Of a DNA stretch of 35,821 nt, positions 2,925 through 18,604 are shown one piece after another. Positions within the stretch are counted from its first letter, which is position 1; each line of letters begins with the position of its first letter. Under the pieces are notes generated by a model. That model worked only from the letters and a program-made list of their open reading frames with translations, was not told where the DNA came from and searched no databases. The DNA is from an uncultured Alphaproteobacteria bacterium (lineage in GTDB: Bacteria > Pseudomonadota > Alphaproteobacteria > Rs-D84), in contig CALXLO010000001.1 in NCBI GenBank assembly GCA_944389235.1, positions 90,956 through 126,776 on the forward strand, read 5' to 3'. Made by a program: the position numbers and the translations under genes.

Positions 2925-2933
2925 TAAAAATAA

Positions 2934-2962
2934 TTGAAAACAGCCATTTGCTTTGGTATTCT
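2934..2962 (+). promoter_or_regulatory. Sigma-70 type promoter for olsBA
   Basis: TTGAAA (2934-2939), a 17-base spacer and TATTCT (2957-2962); the -10 is preceded by TGG, so it is also of the extended type. The predicted start is near 2969, about 31 bases before the olsB ATG. AAGG (2988-2991) could serve as the ribosome site. Confidence 0.6.
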
Positions 2963-2999
2963 TGATAGAGTATTAATTAATTAATAAAAGGTTTTTAAT

Positions 3000-3959
3000 A
3001 TGGCTATCAAGGTTCGCGATTACGAAGTGCGATTGACACGAAACAAAGATGAACGCCGCCAAGTTCGACAGTTGCGATATGATGTTTTCGTAGAAGAAGA
3101 GGGTGCATCTGCCACCGAAGAACAAAGAAATCTGCGCGAAGAATATGACGCGTATGACCGATTTGCAGAATACTTGGCGGTATTTCATAATGGTAAAATT
3201 GTTGGCACATATCGAATTATTGACCGCGATGCTGCTGAAAAAATGGGCAGTTTTTATACCGAAACAGAATTTAACCTGTCCAAGATAAAGAAAGTTGATG
3301 GTAATATTGCAGAAATGTCGCGTGCATGCGTTGCGCGTGAATATCGCGAAAATGCGTTGGTTATGCGTATGTTATGGGCGGGGCTGGGTGAATATGTGAT
3401 GCGGCGTAAAATTGCGATATTGTTTGGTGTTGCGTCGTGGGTCGGAACAAAACCAGTAGAATCAGCCCAGGCTATATCATATTTATACTATAATCATTTG
3501 TCGCCATTGGGATTACGGGCAACTGTTTTAAGTGAAAATTTTGCAGATGGCGTAAATCAAAAACAATCGCGCATGAATATATTGCCGCGTGATTTTGTGG
3601 ACGAAGCTGATGCGCGCCGACAAATGACCCCATTGATAAAGGGGTATCTGCGTCTGGGGGCAACATTTGGCAAGGGTGTATTCATAGACAAGCCATTTAA
3701 TACATACGATGTGTTTGTTATGGTCCAGACTAAAAAAATCAGTGCGACATATCAAAAGCATTTTCTGGGTCGTGAAAACGCTTTGGCAGATTTTGATACC
3801 AAAACCGGTCCATTAAAAACAATGGGTAAAATTATGTTATTACCAGTTACCGGTTCGTTCAAGGTTGTTCGCGCATTTTTTGAATTTTTGTTGCGCGAAG
3901 ATGCCGCCGATGCAGAATATATTGACGATTCCAAAGATAAAGATGAAGGGCGCGAATAA
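3000..3959 (+). CDS. olsB: OlsB-like L-ornithine N-alpha-acyltransferase (GNAT fold)
   Basis: 319 residues. OlsB transfers a 3-hydroxyacyl chain from acyl carrier protein to the alpha-amino group of ornithine, giving lyso-ornithine lipid at the inner membrane. Family features seen: an N-terminal LRYDVFVEEEG segment, GKIVGTYRII (GNAT beta strands), EMSRACVAREYRENALVMRMLWAGLGEYV and ILFGVASWVGT, all like the OlsB/hemolysin-type acetyltransferase domain (Acetyltransf_5). The stop codon overlaps the start of the next gene by one base (TAATG), and that gene is a PlsC/OlsA-type acyltransferase, which completes the two-step pathway. A related autoinducer-synthase-like role is unlikely given this partner. 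The acyl-acceptor amino acid cannot be proved from sequence. Confidence 0.85.
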   Translation: MAIKVRDYEVRLTRNKDERRQVRQLRYDVFVEEEGASATEEQRNLREEYDAYDRFAEYLAVFHNGKIVGTYRIIDRDAAEKMGSFYTETEFNLSKIKKVDGNIAEMSRACVAREYRENALVMRMLWAGLGEYVMRRKIAILFGVASWVGTKPVESAQAISYLYYNHLSPLGLRATVLSENFADGVNQKQSRMNILPRDFVDEADARRQMTPLIKGYLRLGATFGKGVFIDKPFNTYDVFVMVQTKKISATYQKHFLGRENALADFDTKTGPLKTMGKIMLLPVTGSFKVVRAFFEFLLREDAADAEYIDDSKDKDEGRE

Positions 3960-14818: not shown

Positions 14819-15520
14819 TTATTCCCGCCATGTAACAGAATCAAATAATGCGTTTATGCAATTGCGCAGATTTTCATCTGTGAAAAATTGCGCACGCTGG
14901 TCTGGGCTGGTATTATGCGACGCGTCTTCGTAATGCGGAATATATTTTTGAACTGCAAATTTTTTAACACCGCGTGCATGTAAGTCATTTGCAATTTCCA
15001 TTAAATCCATTTTTGATACAAAACGCGGGTCACATGTAATTCTGACTTCAAAATCTTTGCCAGTTGATTGCCATATATCCAGACTGCGCATCATGTGGTC
15101 ATGTGCAATATTTTGACCGACCAATTCACCATATTTTGCACGCGTTGCCTTGTAATCCAGACCAATCCAATCCACAACATCTGCTGCACGCGCCAATGTG
15201 TCTGGATAAAAACCATTTGTGTGCAGCCCAATCGCAAACCCCAGTTCACGAACACGGCGCATATAATCAATCAGCGCGTCTCCTTGCATCAGGGCTTCGC
15301 CGCCAGAAAATACGACAGCTTCCAATTTACCAACGCGCGTTTTTAACCATTCCAAAATTTTTGTTGGGTCGTATTCACCATCGCGAACATTTATCAGATT
15401 GGGGTTTGAACAATACGCACAACGCAATGGACAACCCGTCAAAAACAGCACCGCAGCCAATTTACCCGGATAGTCAATAGTTGTAAATGATACTAAACCA
15501 CCAATCTGAATTTCTCTCAT
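14819..15520 (-). CDS. nrdG: Anaerobic ribonucleotide reductase activating protein
   Basis: 233 residues. NrdG is a radical SAM enzyme that creates the glycyl radical on class III ribonucleotide reductase. The cluster motif is C30-x3-C34-x2-C37 (TGCPLRCAYC), with FSGGEALMQ (about 70-78) as the SAM-binding glycine motif. The N-terminus IGGLVSFTTIDYPGK is typical of the longer NrdG type. It starts seven bases after the stop of the small glycyl-radical gene, with no clear Shine-Dalgarno sequence, so its translation is probably coupled. In this operon its substrate should be the glycine on the separate 61-residue protein rather than on NrdD itself. Confidence 0.93.
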   Translation of the reverse strand: MREIQIGGLVSFTTIDYPGKLAAVLFLTGCPLRCAYCSNPNLINVRDGEYDPTKILEWLKTRVGKLEAVVFSGGEALMQGDALIDYMRRVRELGFAIGLHTNGFYPDTLARAADVVDWIGLDYKATRAKYGELVGQNIAHDHMMRSLDIWQSTGKDFEVRITCDPRFVSKMDLMEIANDLHARGVKKFAVQKYIPHYEDASHNTSPDQRAQFFTDENLRNCINALFDSVTWRE

Positions 15521-15527
15521 ATTTTTA

Positions 15528-15713
15528 TTATGCCGCTTTTTTCATTAATTCACTGTGGCGTTGACCTGTGGTCAAGCAATTTGATTCTGTAAATGTTTTG
15601 CGTTCACAAAATTCAGAATATTTACCAATGTTAAAATTAGAAACCGGTCTATAAAAACCCATAGAACGCGAAAAGACTTCACATTGTGTTCTTTGCATAT
15701 TTTCTGCTGACAT
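15528..15713 (-). CDS. Stand-alone glycyl-radical domain of class III ribonucleotide reductase
   Basis: 61 residues from the ATG at 15713, which has an excellent GGGAGG ribosome site ten bases upstream. Residues 11-35 (CEVFSRSMGFYRPVSNFN...SEF) match the C-terminal end of class III NrdD proteins, where the motif R-V-x-G-Y carries the catalytic glycyl radical; here Gly19 is the predicted radical site. In ordinary NrdD this stretch directly follows the CPxC zinc site on the same chain. The nrdD gene just upstream stops after that zinc site, and this gene begins 37 bases later in another frame. It is therefore a split subunit, comparable in idea to YfiD for pyruvate formate-lyase. Residues 36-61 are a tail I do not recognise. 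A recent frameshift is less likely because the start and ribosome site are good. Confidence 0.82.
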   Translation of the reverse strand: MSAENMQRTQCEVFSRSMGFYRPVSNFNIGKYSEFCERKTFTESNCLTTGQRHSELMKKAA

Positions 15714-15750
15714 AATATTTTTCCTCCCTTTTTTTCTGTTTTTGTTTATT

Positions 15751-17799
15751 TTATTGTGAAACTGTATCTGATTCCGCATTTTGATTAGCCGCAATTTCTG
15801 CGTCGCATTTTGGACAAAATTCATGCCGCCCCGGTATATATCCATGCTTTGGACAAATTGAAAATGTCGGGGTCAGTGTCATATATGGAATTTTGTAGTT
15901 TTCAAATATAGTGCGTACAATCTTTTGCGCCGCATCCCCACTGGATACCGGTTCGCCCATATACAGATGCAACATTGTGCCGCCAGTATATTTGCGCTGT
16001 AATTCTTCTTGGTGTTCCAGTGCGACGAACGGGTCGTCGGTATAATTCACCGGTAATTGTGTTGAATTAGTATAGTACGGTGCATCTTTTGTCCCAGCGG
16101 TAATAATATCTGGGAAATTCTTGACATCTGTTTTTGCAAACCGATAAGAGCAGCCTTCGGCCGGGGTTGCTTCTAAGTTATACAAATTGCCGGTTTGTTC
16201 TTGGAATGTTGCCAAGTTTTCGCGTATAAAGTCCATTAAATCCAACACCAGTTTCTTGCCCATTGGTGTAGCAATGTTTTCTTTATCGTTTGTAAAGTTG
16301 CGCACCATTTCATTTGCACCATTTACCCCAATGGTTGAAAAATGATGGTCCCAGTTGCCCAGATAACGACGGGTAAATGGATATAAACCGCGTTCCATGT
16401 TTTTAGTTATTATGCGGCGTTTGATTTCCAGTGAATCACGCGCCAAATCCAGCAAACGCTTTAATTCGCGGAACAGTCCATCACGGTCGCCCTTGTGCGT
16501 ATAGCCCAATCGTGCCAAGTTAATTGTAACAACGCCGATTGAGCCTGTCTTTTCGGCCGAACCGAACAGTCCGCCCCCGCGCTTTAATAATTCGCGTACA
16601 TCCAGACGCAACCGACAGCACATAGAACGAACATCTGTGGGATTCAAATCAGAATTTAGAAAGTTCTGAAAATTTGGTGTCCCATATTTTGCCGCCAAAT
16701 CAAATAAAGGTTTTACATTTGGATGATTCCATGGAAAATCTTTGGTAATATTATATGTTGGAATTGGGAATGTAAACGGACGACCCATGGCATCGCCTTC
16801 GGTCATGACTTCTAAGAAAGCCTTGTTTATCATATCCATTTCGGTCTGTAAATCACCGTATGTAAAGTCCATTTGTTTTTTACCGATAAATGGACGCTGG
16901 GACCTTAAATCTTCGGGACAAGTCCAATCAAATGTGAAATTAATAAATGGCGTTTGTGTCCCCCAGCGACATGGCACAGCACAATTAAATACCAATGTCT
17001 GCATTGCGTTTTTAACATCTTCGTATGACATATTATCAACGCGTACATACGGTGCTAAATATGTATCAACAGACGAGAATGCTTGCGCGCCAGCAAATTC
17101 GTTTTGCAATGTACCCAAGAAATTTACCATGTGCGAAATTGCAGTTGCCATGTGCTTGGCCGGTGCGCATTGCAGATAACCGGGCACGCCATTAAAACCT
17201 TCGTATAACAATTCGCGCAATGACCAGCCCGCACAATACCCCGTTAACCACCCTAAATCATGAATATGAATAGATGCGTTTTTGTGTGCTTCGGCAATTT
17301 CGCGTGGATACAAATTCAGCCAATATTCTGCGGTCACGCGTTCACTGGTGCGTAAAATCAGCCCACCAATAGAATAACCAATATTTGCATTTTCTTTGAT
17401 GCGCCAATTAGAGCCACCGACATATCCATCTATGACTTCGACCGCATCAACATAAGAATCACGAATTTCTGTACGCTTTTGGCGATATATTATATATGCT
17501 TCGGCTGTCTTGTATGCCTTGGCATCCATCAAGGATTGAATAACCATTTCTTGGACATTTTCAACCGTTGGTGTTTTATCTGGGAATGCTGATTCCAGCT
17601 TATTCAATGTGTTCTGCGTTATTATTGCAATTTTTTCATCAGAAATTTCATGTGTAACAGCCACGGCCTTTTTAATTGCGTCATAAATCTTGCGCGAATC
17701 AAAAACAACCGTTTCCCCAGACCGCTTTTGCACAACATTCAGTCGTGTGGTAAGTGTCGGAATAATCTGAATTTTATTATCTGTTTCTGGTGTTGACAT
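15751..17799 (-). CDS. nrdD: Anaerobic (class III) ribonucleoside-triphosphate reductase, large chain lacking the glycyl-radical tail
   Basis: 682 residues. NrdD reduces ribonucleotides to deoxyribonucleotides without oxygen. An ATP-cone occupies about residues 15-110 (VQKRSGETVVFDSRKIYDAI...AEAYIIYRQKR), giving allosteric control. The barrel includes GYLQCAPAKHMATAISHMVNF, FNCAVPCRWGTQTPFINF and VRSMCCRLRLD (about 395), the cysteine regions used in radical transfer, plus TGSIGVVTINL. The end has the zinc site CPKHGY...FCPKC, then about 16 residues and a stop. The usual R-V-x-G-Y radical motif is absent from this chain and is encoded by the next gene. GGGG seven bases before the ATG is the likely ribosome site. 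Expression is probably under NrdR control. Confidence 0.95.
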   Translation of the reverse strand: MSTPETDNKIQIIPTLTTRLNVVQKRSGETVVFDSRKIYDAIKKAVAVTHEISDEKIAIITQNTLNKLESAFPDKTPTVENVQEMVIQSLMDAKAYKTAEAYIIYRQKRTEIRDSYVDAVEVIDGYVGGSNWRIKENANIGYSIGGLILRTSERVTAEYWLNLYPREIAEAHKNASIHIHDLGWLTGYCAGWSLRELLYEGFNGVPGYLQCAPAKHMATAISHMVNFLGTLQNEFAGAQAFSSVDTYLAPYVRVDNMSYEDVKNAMQTLVFNCAVPCRWGTQTPFINFTFDWTCPEDLRSQRPFIGKKQMDFTYGDLQTEMDMINKAFLEVMTEGDAMGRPFTFPIPTYNITKDFPWNHPNVKPLFDLAAKYGTPNFQNFLNSDLNPTDVRSMCCRLRLDVRELLKRGGGLFGSAEKTGSIGVVTINLARLGYTHKGDRDGLFRELKRLLDLARDSLEIKRRIITKNMERGLYPFTRRYLGNWDHHFSTIGVNGANEMVRNFTNDKENIATPMGKKLVLDLMDFIRENLATFQEQTGNLYNLEATPAEGCSYRFAKTDVKNFPDIITAGTKDAPYYTNSTQLPVNYTDDPFVALEHQEELQRKYTGGTMLHLYMGEPVSSGDAAQKIVRTIFENYKIPYMTLTPTFSICPKHGYIPGRHEFCPKCDAEIAANQNAESDTVSQ

Positions 17800-17822: not shown

Positions 17823-17871
17823 ATACAATATATAGTATATATTTTGTCGTTTTGATATCAATATATAGTAT
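17823..17871 (-). promoter_or_regulatory. nrdD promoter overlapped by two NrdR-box-like operators
   Basis: On the minus strand TTGATA (17861-17856), a 16-base spacer and TATACT (17839-17834) form a promoter about 35 bases upstream of the nrdD ATG. Two near-copies of the published NrdR box (acaCwAtATaTwGtgt) cover it: 17823-17838 matches 14 of 16 positions and 17856-17871 matches 12 of 16. They share the core CAATATATAGTAT and lie 33 bases apart, close to three helical turns. This placement fits repression by the ATP-cone regulator NrdR, which is not in the window. Confidence 0.65.
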
Positions 17872-18053: not shown

Positions 18054-18100
18054 ATACAAAATATAGATATTTTTTACGAATCGTATACTATATATTGACA
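18054..18100. promoter_or_regulatory. Second NrdR-box-like pair
   Basis: ATACAAAATATAGATA (18054-18069, 11 of 16 to the box) and ATACTATATATTGACA (18085-18100, 12 of 16 in the opposite orientation) are exactly 31 bases apart, the usual NrdR spacing. The second ends in a TTGACA hexamer (18095-18100) pointing toward the gene at 18176. In such AT-rich DNA chance matches are possible. Confidence 0.4.
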
Positions 18101-18175: not shown

Positions 18176-18604
18176 ATGGCACAGCGAAAAAGCAGATATT
18201 TTGATTTAGATTCAGAAATTGCAAGCGTCAGGCAACAAATAGAACATAACAAATCTGAATTGAAAAATAATCATAATGACAGTGCGGACCGTCAAGAAAC
18301 CCGCCAGATACTATTAGAATTGGAAGCGGAACTGTCAGCCTTGATAAGCATGCAAAAGCGCAATTATGCAGATGCCCGCGCAAGATTAGAACAACTGCAC
18401 AAACGCCGTGAATTTTTAGAAGCGCGTTTGGAATATCTGGGTGATAAAATAGATGCGTGTGATTTGAATATGGATTCGGATGTATATGACGCACGCCAAT
18501 GTGCAGATTATGCACGCGATAAAGCCAGATTTTCAGATGAATATAAATCTGTATCATCTGAATTATCACATGTATTAAATCAAATTAAATCACAACATGA
18601 ATAA
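18176..18604 (+). CDS. Coiled-coil protein, unrecognised
   Basis: 142 residues, ATG preceded by AAGGGG at 18163-18168. Nearly the whole chain is charged helix with heptad-like spacing: residues 10-60 (SEIASVRQQIEHNKSELK...LLELEAELSALI) and 65-100 (ARLEQLHKRREFLEARLEYL), then a third helix to the end. There is no signal peptide and no membrane segment. I do not recognise the family. It is divergent from nrdD and may share its control region, but a functional link to nucleotide reduction is not supported by the protein itself. A hairpin follows the stop. Confidence 0.65.
   Translation: MAQRKSRYFDLDSEIASVRQQIEHNKSELKNNHNDSADRQETRQILLELEAELSALISMQKRNYADARARLEQLHKRREFLEARLEYLGDKIDACDLNMDSDVYDARQCADYARDKARFSDEYKSVSSELSHVLNQIKSQHE

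Follow-up and report, generated by a model that had tools for sequence, protein, structure and literature searches.

Introduction

How can an anaerobic ribonucleotide reductase (RNR) function when its catalytic protein ends before the glycyl-radical loop, and a very small gene next to it appears to hold the missing end? This question is raised by a locus in the genome of an uncultured alphaproteobacterium, within a window of 35,821 nucleotides, which is the whole stretch of DNA analysed here. Class III RNR is described as a system of two proteins, NrdD and NrdG (PMC4009431). A preliminary description of the locus had proposed that the radical is carried by a separate peptide encoded between the two. 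We find it very probable that the locus encodes a two-chain class III RNR, in which a NrdD of 682 aa is completed by a glycyl-radical subunit of about 60 aa that would be activated by NrdG2, could be renewed, and is probably also fed by phages.

A class III reductase encoded in two parts

The nrdD body (15751..17799, minus strand) encodes 682 aa with an ATP-cone, the NRDD barrel domain and the finger-loop cysteine of MCCR, and the S-M-C-C-R finger-loop cysteines are invariant in our alignment of NrdD bodies (A1). The zinc site CPKH...CPKC lies within the same coordinates on the minus strand, where the glycyl-radical loop is absent. The protein ends with CPKHGYIPGRHEFCPKC and 17 further residues, close to the 16 or so that had been claimed after the zinc site, and no R-x-x-G-Y motif occurs beyond CPKHGYIPGRHEFCPKC in the window's NrdD. 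The same-chain C-terminal glycyl-radical domain, a hallmark of class III, is therefore missing from this protein; the radical glycine, in R-x-x-G-Y/F...N-x-G-K, is present, but on a separate chain of 61 aa.

The gene of this putative glycyl-radical subunit (15528..15713, minus strand) runs from an ATG at 15713 to a stop at 15528 in a frame that differs from that of nrdD; its product starts with MSAENMQRTQCEVFSRSMGFYRPVSNFNIGK and carries the predicted radical Gly19 in FSRSMGFYRPVSNFNIGK. The ATG lies 37 nt after the NrdD stop and 9 nt from a Shine-Dalgarno-like GGGAGG (15723..15728, minus strand). The activase gene nrdG2 (14819..15520, minus strand; TIGR02495, radical SAM) starts at 15520, 7 nt past the small gene. 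The ORF coordinates agree with the preliminary description in the change of frame, both distances, the GGGAGG and the position of Gly19. The activase is assigned to NrdG2 with 186.6 bits against TIGR02495, the curated cut-off being 131.15.

Profile searches divide one protein family between the two ORFs. The body matches PF13597 at positions 1-529 of 562 (575 bits) and NF006126 at positions 4-658 of 684 (1036 bits). The small protein matches PF13597 at positions 531-562 (22 bits, E 7e-5, below the gathering cut-off of 26.2), the end of NF006126 (649-682 of 684) and the end positions 590-623 of 624 of NF006358 (E 6e-6). Since the NrdD profile is covered jointly by both ORFs, the match is not due to chance, a matter that conservation in relatives settles. 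The complementary coverage means that the two ORFs jointly correspond to one ordinary class III enzyme, and it bears out the proposal that the small gene is the missing radical end of NrdD. Among 33 aligned small subunits, R, M-G, R-P, N-x-G-K, E and R are invariant. With the small protein as query, phmmer found no match in the PDB at E <= 1.

A structure was modelled with AF2 for a single read-through chain of a relative (L054, 92% identical to the window's NrdD; 26 alignment rows). Its mean pLDDT is 76.5 and its pTM 0.72; the stretch covering stop and gap (684-698) falls below 50, and the radical part reaches 62-79 by blocks of ten. Compared with the Prevotella copri NrdD (8p2s_B), the model gives Z 32.9 and an rmsd of 3.0 Å over 547 residues, model residues 117-738 being aligned to 91-735, a range that marks the first and last aligned residue only. 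The model agrees with docking of the radical part at the known place in NrdD; since one read-through chain was modelled, this docking is not independent evidence.

The split enzyme in its genome and genus

The window's genome (G000; 823 kb, 97.9% complete) has one NrdD match by family search, and neither a match to the class I/II RNR barrel PF02867 nor a PF01228 protein was found in it. The split enzyme is therefore the sole RNR found there, and the second intact nrdD that would have spoken against the split was not found in this genome. Among the 35 genomes of the genus, the window's own included (G000-G034), the small gene occurs in 29 and always adjoins the body; these are all the genus genomes with an uncut nrdD end (29/29). 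The search for the same split in related genomes, recommended earlier, thus gave a uniform result, and the idea of a lone frameshift among fused relatives is contradicted by relatives that are split too.

Six genomes of the genus are without the small gene. The body is cut at a contig end in three of them (G007, G008, G032), and no NrdD was found in the other three (G012, G019, G022). G012 and G022 yielded neither NrdD nor a class I/II (PF02867) ORF. G019 has a 655-aa ORF (L175, 1986-3953) with a weak PF02867 match, which by eye resembles a B12-dependent RNR and is a possible replacement of the anaerobic enzyme.

Spread and history of the split

The separation reaches far beyond the genus. A scan of genome contigs via conserved peptide patterns found 590 NrdD relatives, and the best 80 of them, picked by score, comprise 77 split loci, 2 fused and 1 undetermined. 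The first scoring of these best 80 had given 74 split, 2 fused and 4 unscored; among the four, one (L056) is split, two bodies (L065, L105) have no small neighbour, and L071 lies near a contig end. In a phylum sample of 199 genomes, NF006126 was found in 10; NrdD is split in 8 of these and fused in the other 2. Sampling of the class (387 genomes) gave the NrdD family in 37 (6 fused, 31 split), and all 31 split genomes have a separate small gene. It adjoins the body in 26 of the 31 and lies on another contig in 4 (G331, G465, G486, G605), while in G582 the linkage is unreadable, the body being cut at the contig end. Since several relatives are fused, separation is not required for function.

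Similar gene pairs were suspected to stand unremarked in databases, and this is the case. RefSeq lists body and small gene as two genes in Cupriavidus necator H16, Bradyrhizobium, Sulfuricystis and Sulfuricurvum, the small one being named 'nrdD' with no comment. In Thiothrix the small gene and the activase are listed, and an unlisted frame ahead of them holds the body's end; this frame has only 321 aa, so the body may be broken. Paracoccus and C. metallidurans have both parts in their DNA without listed genes, and NrdD is fused in Acidithiobacillus and Actinomyces. A tblastn search of plasmid records gave 29 records with matches, of which 10 were examined. The Allochromatium plasmid pALVIN01 carries the small gene, with no body end within 3 kb on either side. 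Named isolates with the split include Pseudomonas chlororaphis, P. brassicacearum, Stutzerimonas stutzeri, Parasutterella secunda, Thiobacillus thioparus and Microbulbifer marinus; metagenome bins account for the few split loci with labels such as Omnitrophota, Elusimicrobia, Acidobacteria and Actinobacteria. Within this widespread class III RNR variant, which RefSeq annotates, the window's enzyme is unexceptional.

A quick LG+G4 tree was built from 66 bodies, of which 50 are split, 5 orphan and 11 fused (rows L098, L144, L147, L049 and L167 left out). It requires no fewer than 6 transitions between the fused and the unfused state, and starred branches force at least 4 of these. When the root is placed at the two fused outgroup rows, the shortest history is one early split followed by several re-fusions. 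This history is tentative, since long branches meet at the root and the tree is a quick one.

Frames, linkage and extra copies

Scored against the frame of the body, the small gene of 74 split loci falls in frame 0 in 26 cases, in frame 1 in 27 and in frame 2 in 21, which is near random, and the gaps range from a 23-nt overlap to 247 nt under the start rule used. This spread of frames and gaps argues against a recoding signal common to the loci.

Where no small gene was in view beside the body (8 cases), the genome was searched for it. It lies elsewhere in the genome for 6 of the 7 uncut bodies that lack an adjoining small gene (L065, L105 and the bodies of G465, G486, G605 and G331). In G582, with its body cut at the contig end, the small gene sits at the end of another contig, and none was detected in G614, whose body L071 stops 135 nt short of the contig end. 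Away from the body, the small gene adjoins NrdG2 in G465, G612 (that of L065) and G613 (that of L105), three of the six genomes. Because the small gene lies elsewhere in six genomes, three times beside the activase, the radical loop is, judging by sequence and gene placement, a trans-acting subunit. The order body / radical peptide / activase, to which the preliminary description had attached weight, is indeed common; it is not obligatory, the small gene being unlinked in those six genomes.

At three loci (L224, L228, L229) radical subunit and NrdG2 stand together with the NrdD body elsewhere, and in G465 (L224) the genes of ribosomal protein S20 and DnaA follow them. The unlinked subunit ORF of G331 (L227, 2707-3078) has 124 aa and a long N-terminal extension. 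G547 has a radical-subunit gene (L235, 3012-3212), and the NrdD family search found no body there.

Extra copies occur as well. More than one radical-loop match is present in 7 of the class sample's 31 split genomes, namely two each in G303, G319, G397, G473, G536 and G593 and three in G600, the second copy of G397 being of the other loop type. Four copies were found in G054 and two in the genome of L130. Extra copies lie close to a recombinase together with an M15 endolysin in G303, to an endolysin in G593, to a phage portal protein in G397 and to a relaxase in G054; the remaining copies have no telling neighbour. The three extra genes of G054 (L231, L232, L233) stand without adjoining NrdD or NrdG, and L232, on contig 107, is near a MobA-type relaxase and a nuclease, a mobile-element setting.

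Lone radical genes in phages

A first viral scan (IMG/VR), with the small-subunit alignment A2 as query, gave 222 pattern-found relatives. Among the best 80 of these, 77 loci have a radical-loop gene without a NrdD body in the fetched stretch (at most 6 kb on each side), and 3 have a body. The 50 longest of the 77 lone records (19-212 kb) were searched whole with PF13597; in 49 the match is confined to the radical end of the profile, mostly from about position 530, and one (G651) has a NrdD body too. At 11 of the 77 lone loci the stretch holds less than 2.1 kb upstream, so that a body could be cut off, and 2 of these 11 are among the records searched whole; the stretch of L289 begins at a contig end. 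As IMG/VR records are often fragments, absence of a body means absence in the record. The open frame exceeds 120 aa at 5 of the 77 lone loci, and 66 of 76 extracted peptides are distinct.

The whole viral records supplied 188 neighbours, of which 80 were hand-picked for a family scan. The commonest among these 80 are tail proteins (Mtd_N, 8) and lysozymes (5), followed by integrase, holin and DNA polymerase A (3 each). At L257 the radical gene comes after DNA polymerase A with one ORF between, and thymidylate synthase lies slightly farther upstream.

The core motif is present in all 77 lone phage copies, and pN/pS is 0.22 in phage copies (824 pairs) against 0.21 in hosts (2567 pairs), figures that come from non-independent pairs and, given a pattern-based search with a fixed motif, partly reflect search conditions in both motif conservation and low pN. 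The signature SR[S/A]MG is shared by 39/39 host sequences from the window's genus or its closest relatives (a set that includes the window and may contain repeats), and it occurs in 0/68 other hosts and at 15/77 phage loci (13 distinct peptides); this last figure does not measure frequency, because the signature was part of the query. Phages with SR[S/A]MG probably infect relatives of the window's organism.

A second viral scan used A7, the loop type of fused NrdDs, and scored frames from stop to stop. The best 80 of 355 comprise 55 that are lone within the fetched stretch (at most 4 kb on each side), 22 fused, 2 with a body nearby and 1 cut. As fused-type loops also occur alone in viruses, lone radical peptides extend beyond the split clade. 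The lone loci among L237-L315 (first scan) and L316-L395 (second scan) belong to two loop types. In the ANMV-1 virus the radical-loop protein is 144 aa long, and the 6 kb displayed include no further annotated NrdD. Searches of the annotated phage collection matched just 3 records with the window's protein and 2 with each of two other queries; with so few matches, the phage claim rests on uncultivated IMG/VR contigs. The lone NrdD radical-loop gene is probably an overlooked phage auxiliary gene, and the lone viral copies suggest that the radical part can be swapped or supplied from outside.

Two further observations concern viral sequences. The phage family PHROG phrog_4132 (function unassigned, 179 positions) matches the small protein with its own positions 119-159 (E 0.001) and may be a lone NrdD radical protein. 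One IMG/VR locus (L236) carries a pair of body and small gene, its small protein being 85% identical to the window's; it is either host DNA or a two-gene phage.

Comparison with known systems

The window's system shares with the class III NrdD enzymes of P. copri, T4 and T. maritima the fold, the ATP-cone (not in all), the zinc site, the finger-loop cysteine, the sequence of the glycyl-radical loop and the radical-SAM activase. In P. copri NrdD, according to PMC11226230, the glycyl-radical domain (676-739) belongs to the same chain, with the zinc site and the radical Gly711, and is mobile under dATP; in the window, by contrast, the radical loop is a separate gene.

Small separate glycyl-radical proteins are known as spare parts for pyruvate formate-lyase (PFL), namely YfiD/GrcA and T4 Y06I (PMC8683613). 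These resemble the small protein in being bacterial and phage proteins that complete a glycyl-radical enzyme. However, GrcA serves PFL and duplicates a domain of the intact enzyme, whereas the partner in the window is NrdD and the domain was found nowhere else. Activation of YfiD needs cleaved PFL, and spare parts are shown only for PFL and proposed for other glycyl-radical enzymes (PMC8683613). PF01228 gave no match at E <= 1 in the small protein and 7 others tested. Membership in GrcA was ruled out by this and by the sole NrdD found in G000, which is without the domain.

Another RNR made of two chains is NrdJa-NrdJb of Pseudomonas. Its chains come from one operon and both are needed; it is a B12-dependent class II enzyme, the small chain of which mediates thiol-disulfide exchange (PMC4520616). 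The difference is that of class, G000 being without a PF02867 match.

Plasmid pHG1 of C. necator H16 (L033) has the same order of body (759-2789), 66-aa 'nrdD' (2932-3132) and activase, published as NrdD and NrdG. PMC2864759 gives nrdDG of C. necator as essential for complete denitrification, and nrdDG of strain CH34 as Rmet_5137 and Rmet_5139. The 66-aa neighbour in C. necator holds the radical loop TRVMGYHRPVSSFNVGK. Siedow et al., in 1999, reportedly named G650 of C. necator NrdD as the radical glycine. In the body, residue 650 falls within CPTHGYLAGEH, where it is the HGY glycine of the zinc site.

Among phages, nrdD is the commonest split RNR gene, by way of introns, inteins or fragmentation (PMC3653736). 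An intron or intein as the cause in the window is disfavoured by the short gap, by the start that the small gene has of its own and by Rfam, which found only two tRNAs in the window. The available parts of PMC9669993, PMC9531940, PMC3019208, PMC4860495, PMC2795772, PMC4390871, PMC3267527 and PMC8365446 mention no split class III enzyme of bacteria. The literature search, confined to open-access PMC papers (subscription papers lying outside its scope), listed none on a split bacterial class III RNR or on a lone NrdD radical gene.

A proposed renewable radical subunit and its alternatives

Gene anatomy, conservation, co-occurrence and independence of frame and linkage are direct observations. 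From sequence we infer that the small protein would carry the radical, dissociate and be exchanged after oxygen damage, steps made more plausible by the unlinked, multicopy and phage-borne copies. NrdG2 would put the radical on Gly19 of the small protein, which would sit in the body like the C-terminal domain of a fused NrdD and pass the radical to the body's finger-loop cysteine. As a separate chain, it could be replaced after oxygen cleavage without a new body. Phages with the lone gene would probably provide the host enzyme with a radical subunit of their own, securing dNTPs, and their copies may repair, boost or deregulate host NrdD. Whether the subunit is an exchangeable trans-acting part for hosts and phages alike, with body-less phages inserting matched subunits during infection to restore oxygen-damaged host NrdD or to lift dATP control, we judge to be close to an even call, falling slightly on the doubtful side.

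Only the exchange step is opposed by the rival of a permanent subunit, which would bind the body once and tightly, the split being neutral gene fission rather than a repair device. The small gene adjoins the body throughout the genus (29/29) and in 26 of the class sample's 31 split genomes, and fused forms occur several times in the tree, all of which fits permanence; unlinked, multiple and lone phage copies, however, are difficult to account for unless existing bodies can take up a subunit made separately. We take permanence to be a serious possibility with less than an even chance, and its probability overlaps with that of the best explanation. A role as YfiD/GrcA-like spare part only, in which the small protein rescues a complete, oxygen-cleaved NrdD, draws on the resemblance to YfiD in its working (PMC8683613) and on lone viral copies that include the fused-NrdD loop type. 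It is very improbable, and for the window already contradicted, since no complete NrdD was found in the window's genome and, in the split genomes searched, the radical glycine comes from the small gene; phage copies may have such a role in hosts with fused NrdD.

It is harder still to believe in a regulator or decoy that resembles the radical domain and bears no radical, another protein supplying it. The radical on the small protein is a prediction, which favours this idea, but the radical Gly, the Arg and G-K are invariant in 33/33 aligned subunits, and no other NrdD or PF01228 protein was found in G000. The probability is next to nil for a frameshift, a sequencing error, a pseudogene, or recoding into one chain by programmed frameshift or stop read-through. 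The small gene does lie in another frame and close downstream, but the split is kept across genera and phyla, the three frames are about equally used, the gaps extend from overlap to 247 nt, and unlinked genes lie on other contigs. A lone frameshift, sequencing error and one-chain recoding were ruled out on the conserved split, the frames of 26/27/21 and the unlinked copies.

A two-chain enzyme with a separate radical subunit thus places the radical loop of a large clade, with isolates of Pseudomonas, Stutzerimonas, Thiobacillus and Cupriavidus, on a short peptide of its own. Such a peptide is a simple way to part radical storage from catalysis. The split enzyme allows repair of an oxygen-cleaved RNR to be tested and the G650 genetics of C. 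necator to be re-read. The phage copies that stand alone hint at a neglected auxiliary gene for dNTP supply, and with them the spare parts proposed for other glycyl-radical enzymes (PMC8683613) become testable. The phage part is more novel than the split itself, and trans-acting and phage-borne subunits are of interest beyond the window's genome.

NrdR-like boxes near nrdD

Two NrdR-box-like sequences, both CAATATATAG, lie upstream of nrdD at 17826..17835 and 17859..17868 (plus strand), the second 33 bp from the first. A third NrdR-like core (18088-18097) stands before a divergent ORF at 18176. With CWATATATWG as core, which we take to represent the NrdR-box consensus, the window has three perfect cores against 0.34 expected, and as many appeared in 1 of 100 shuffles. 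A nrdR gene is present elsewhere in G000.
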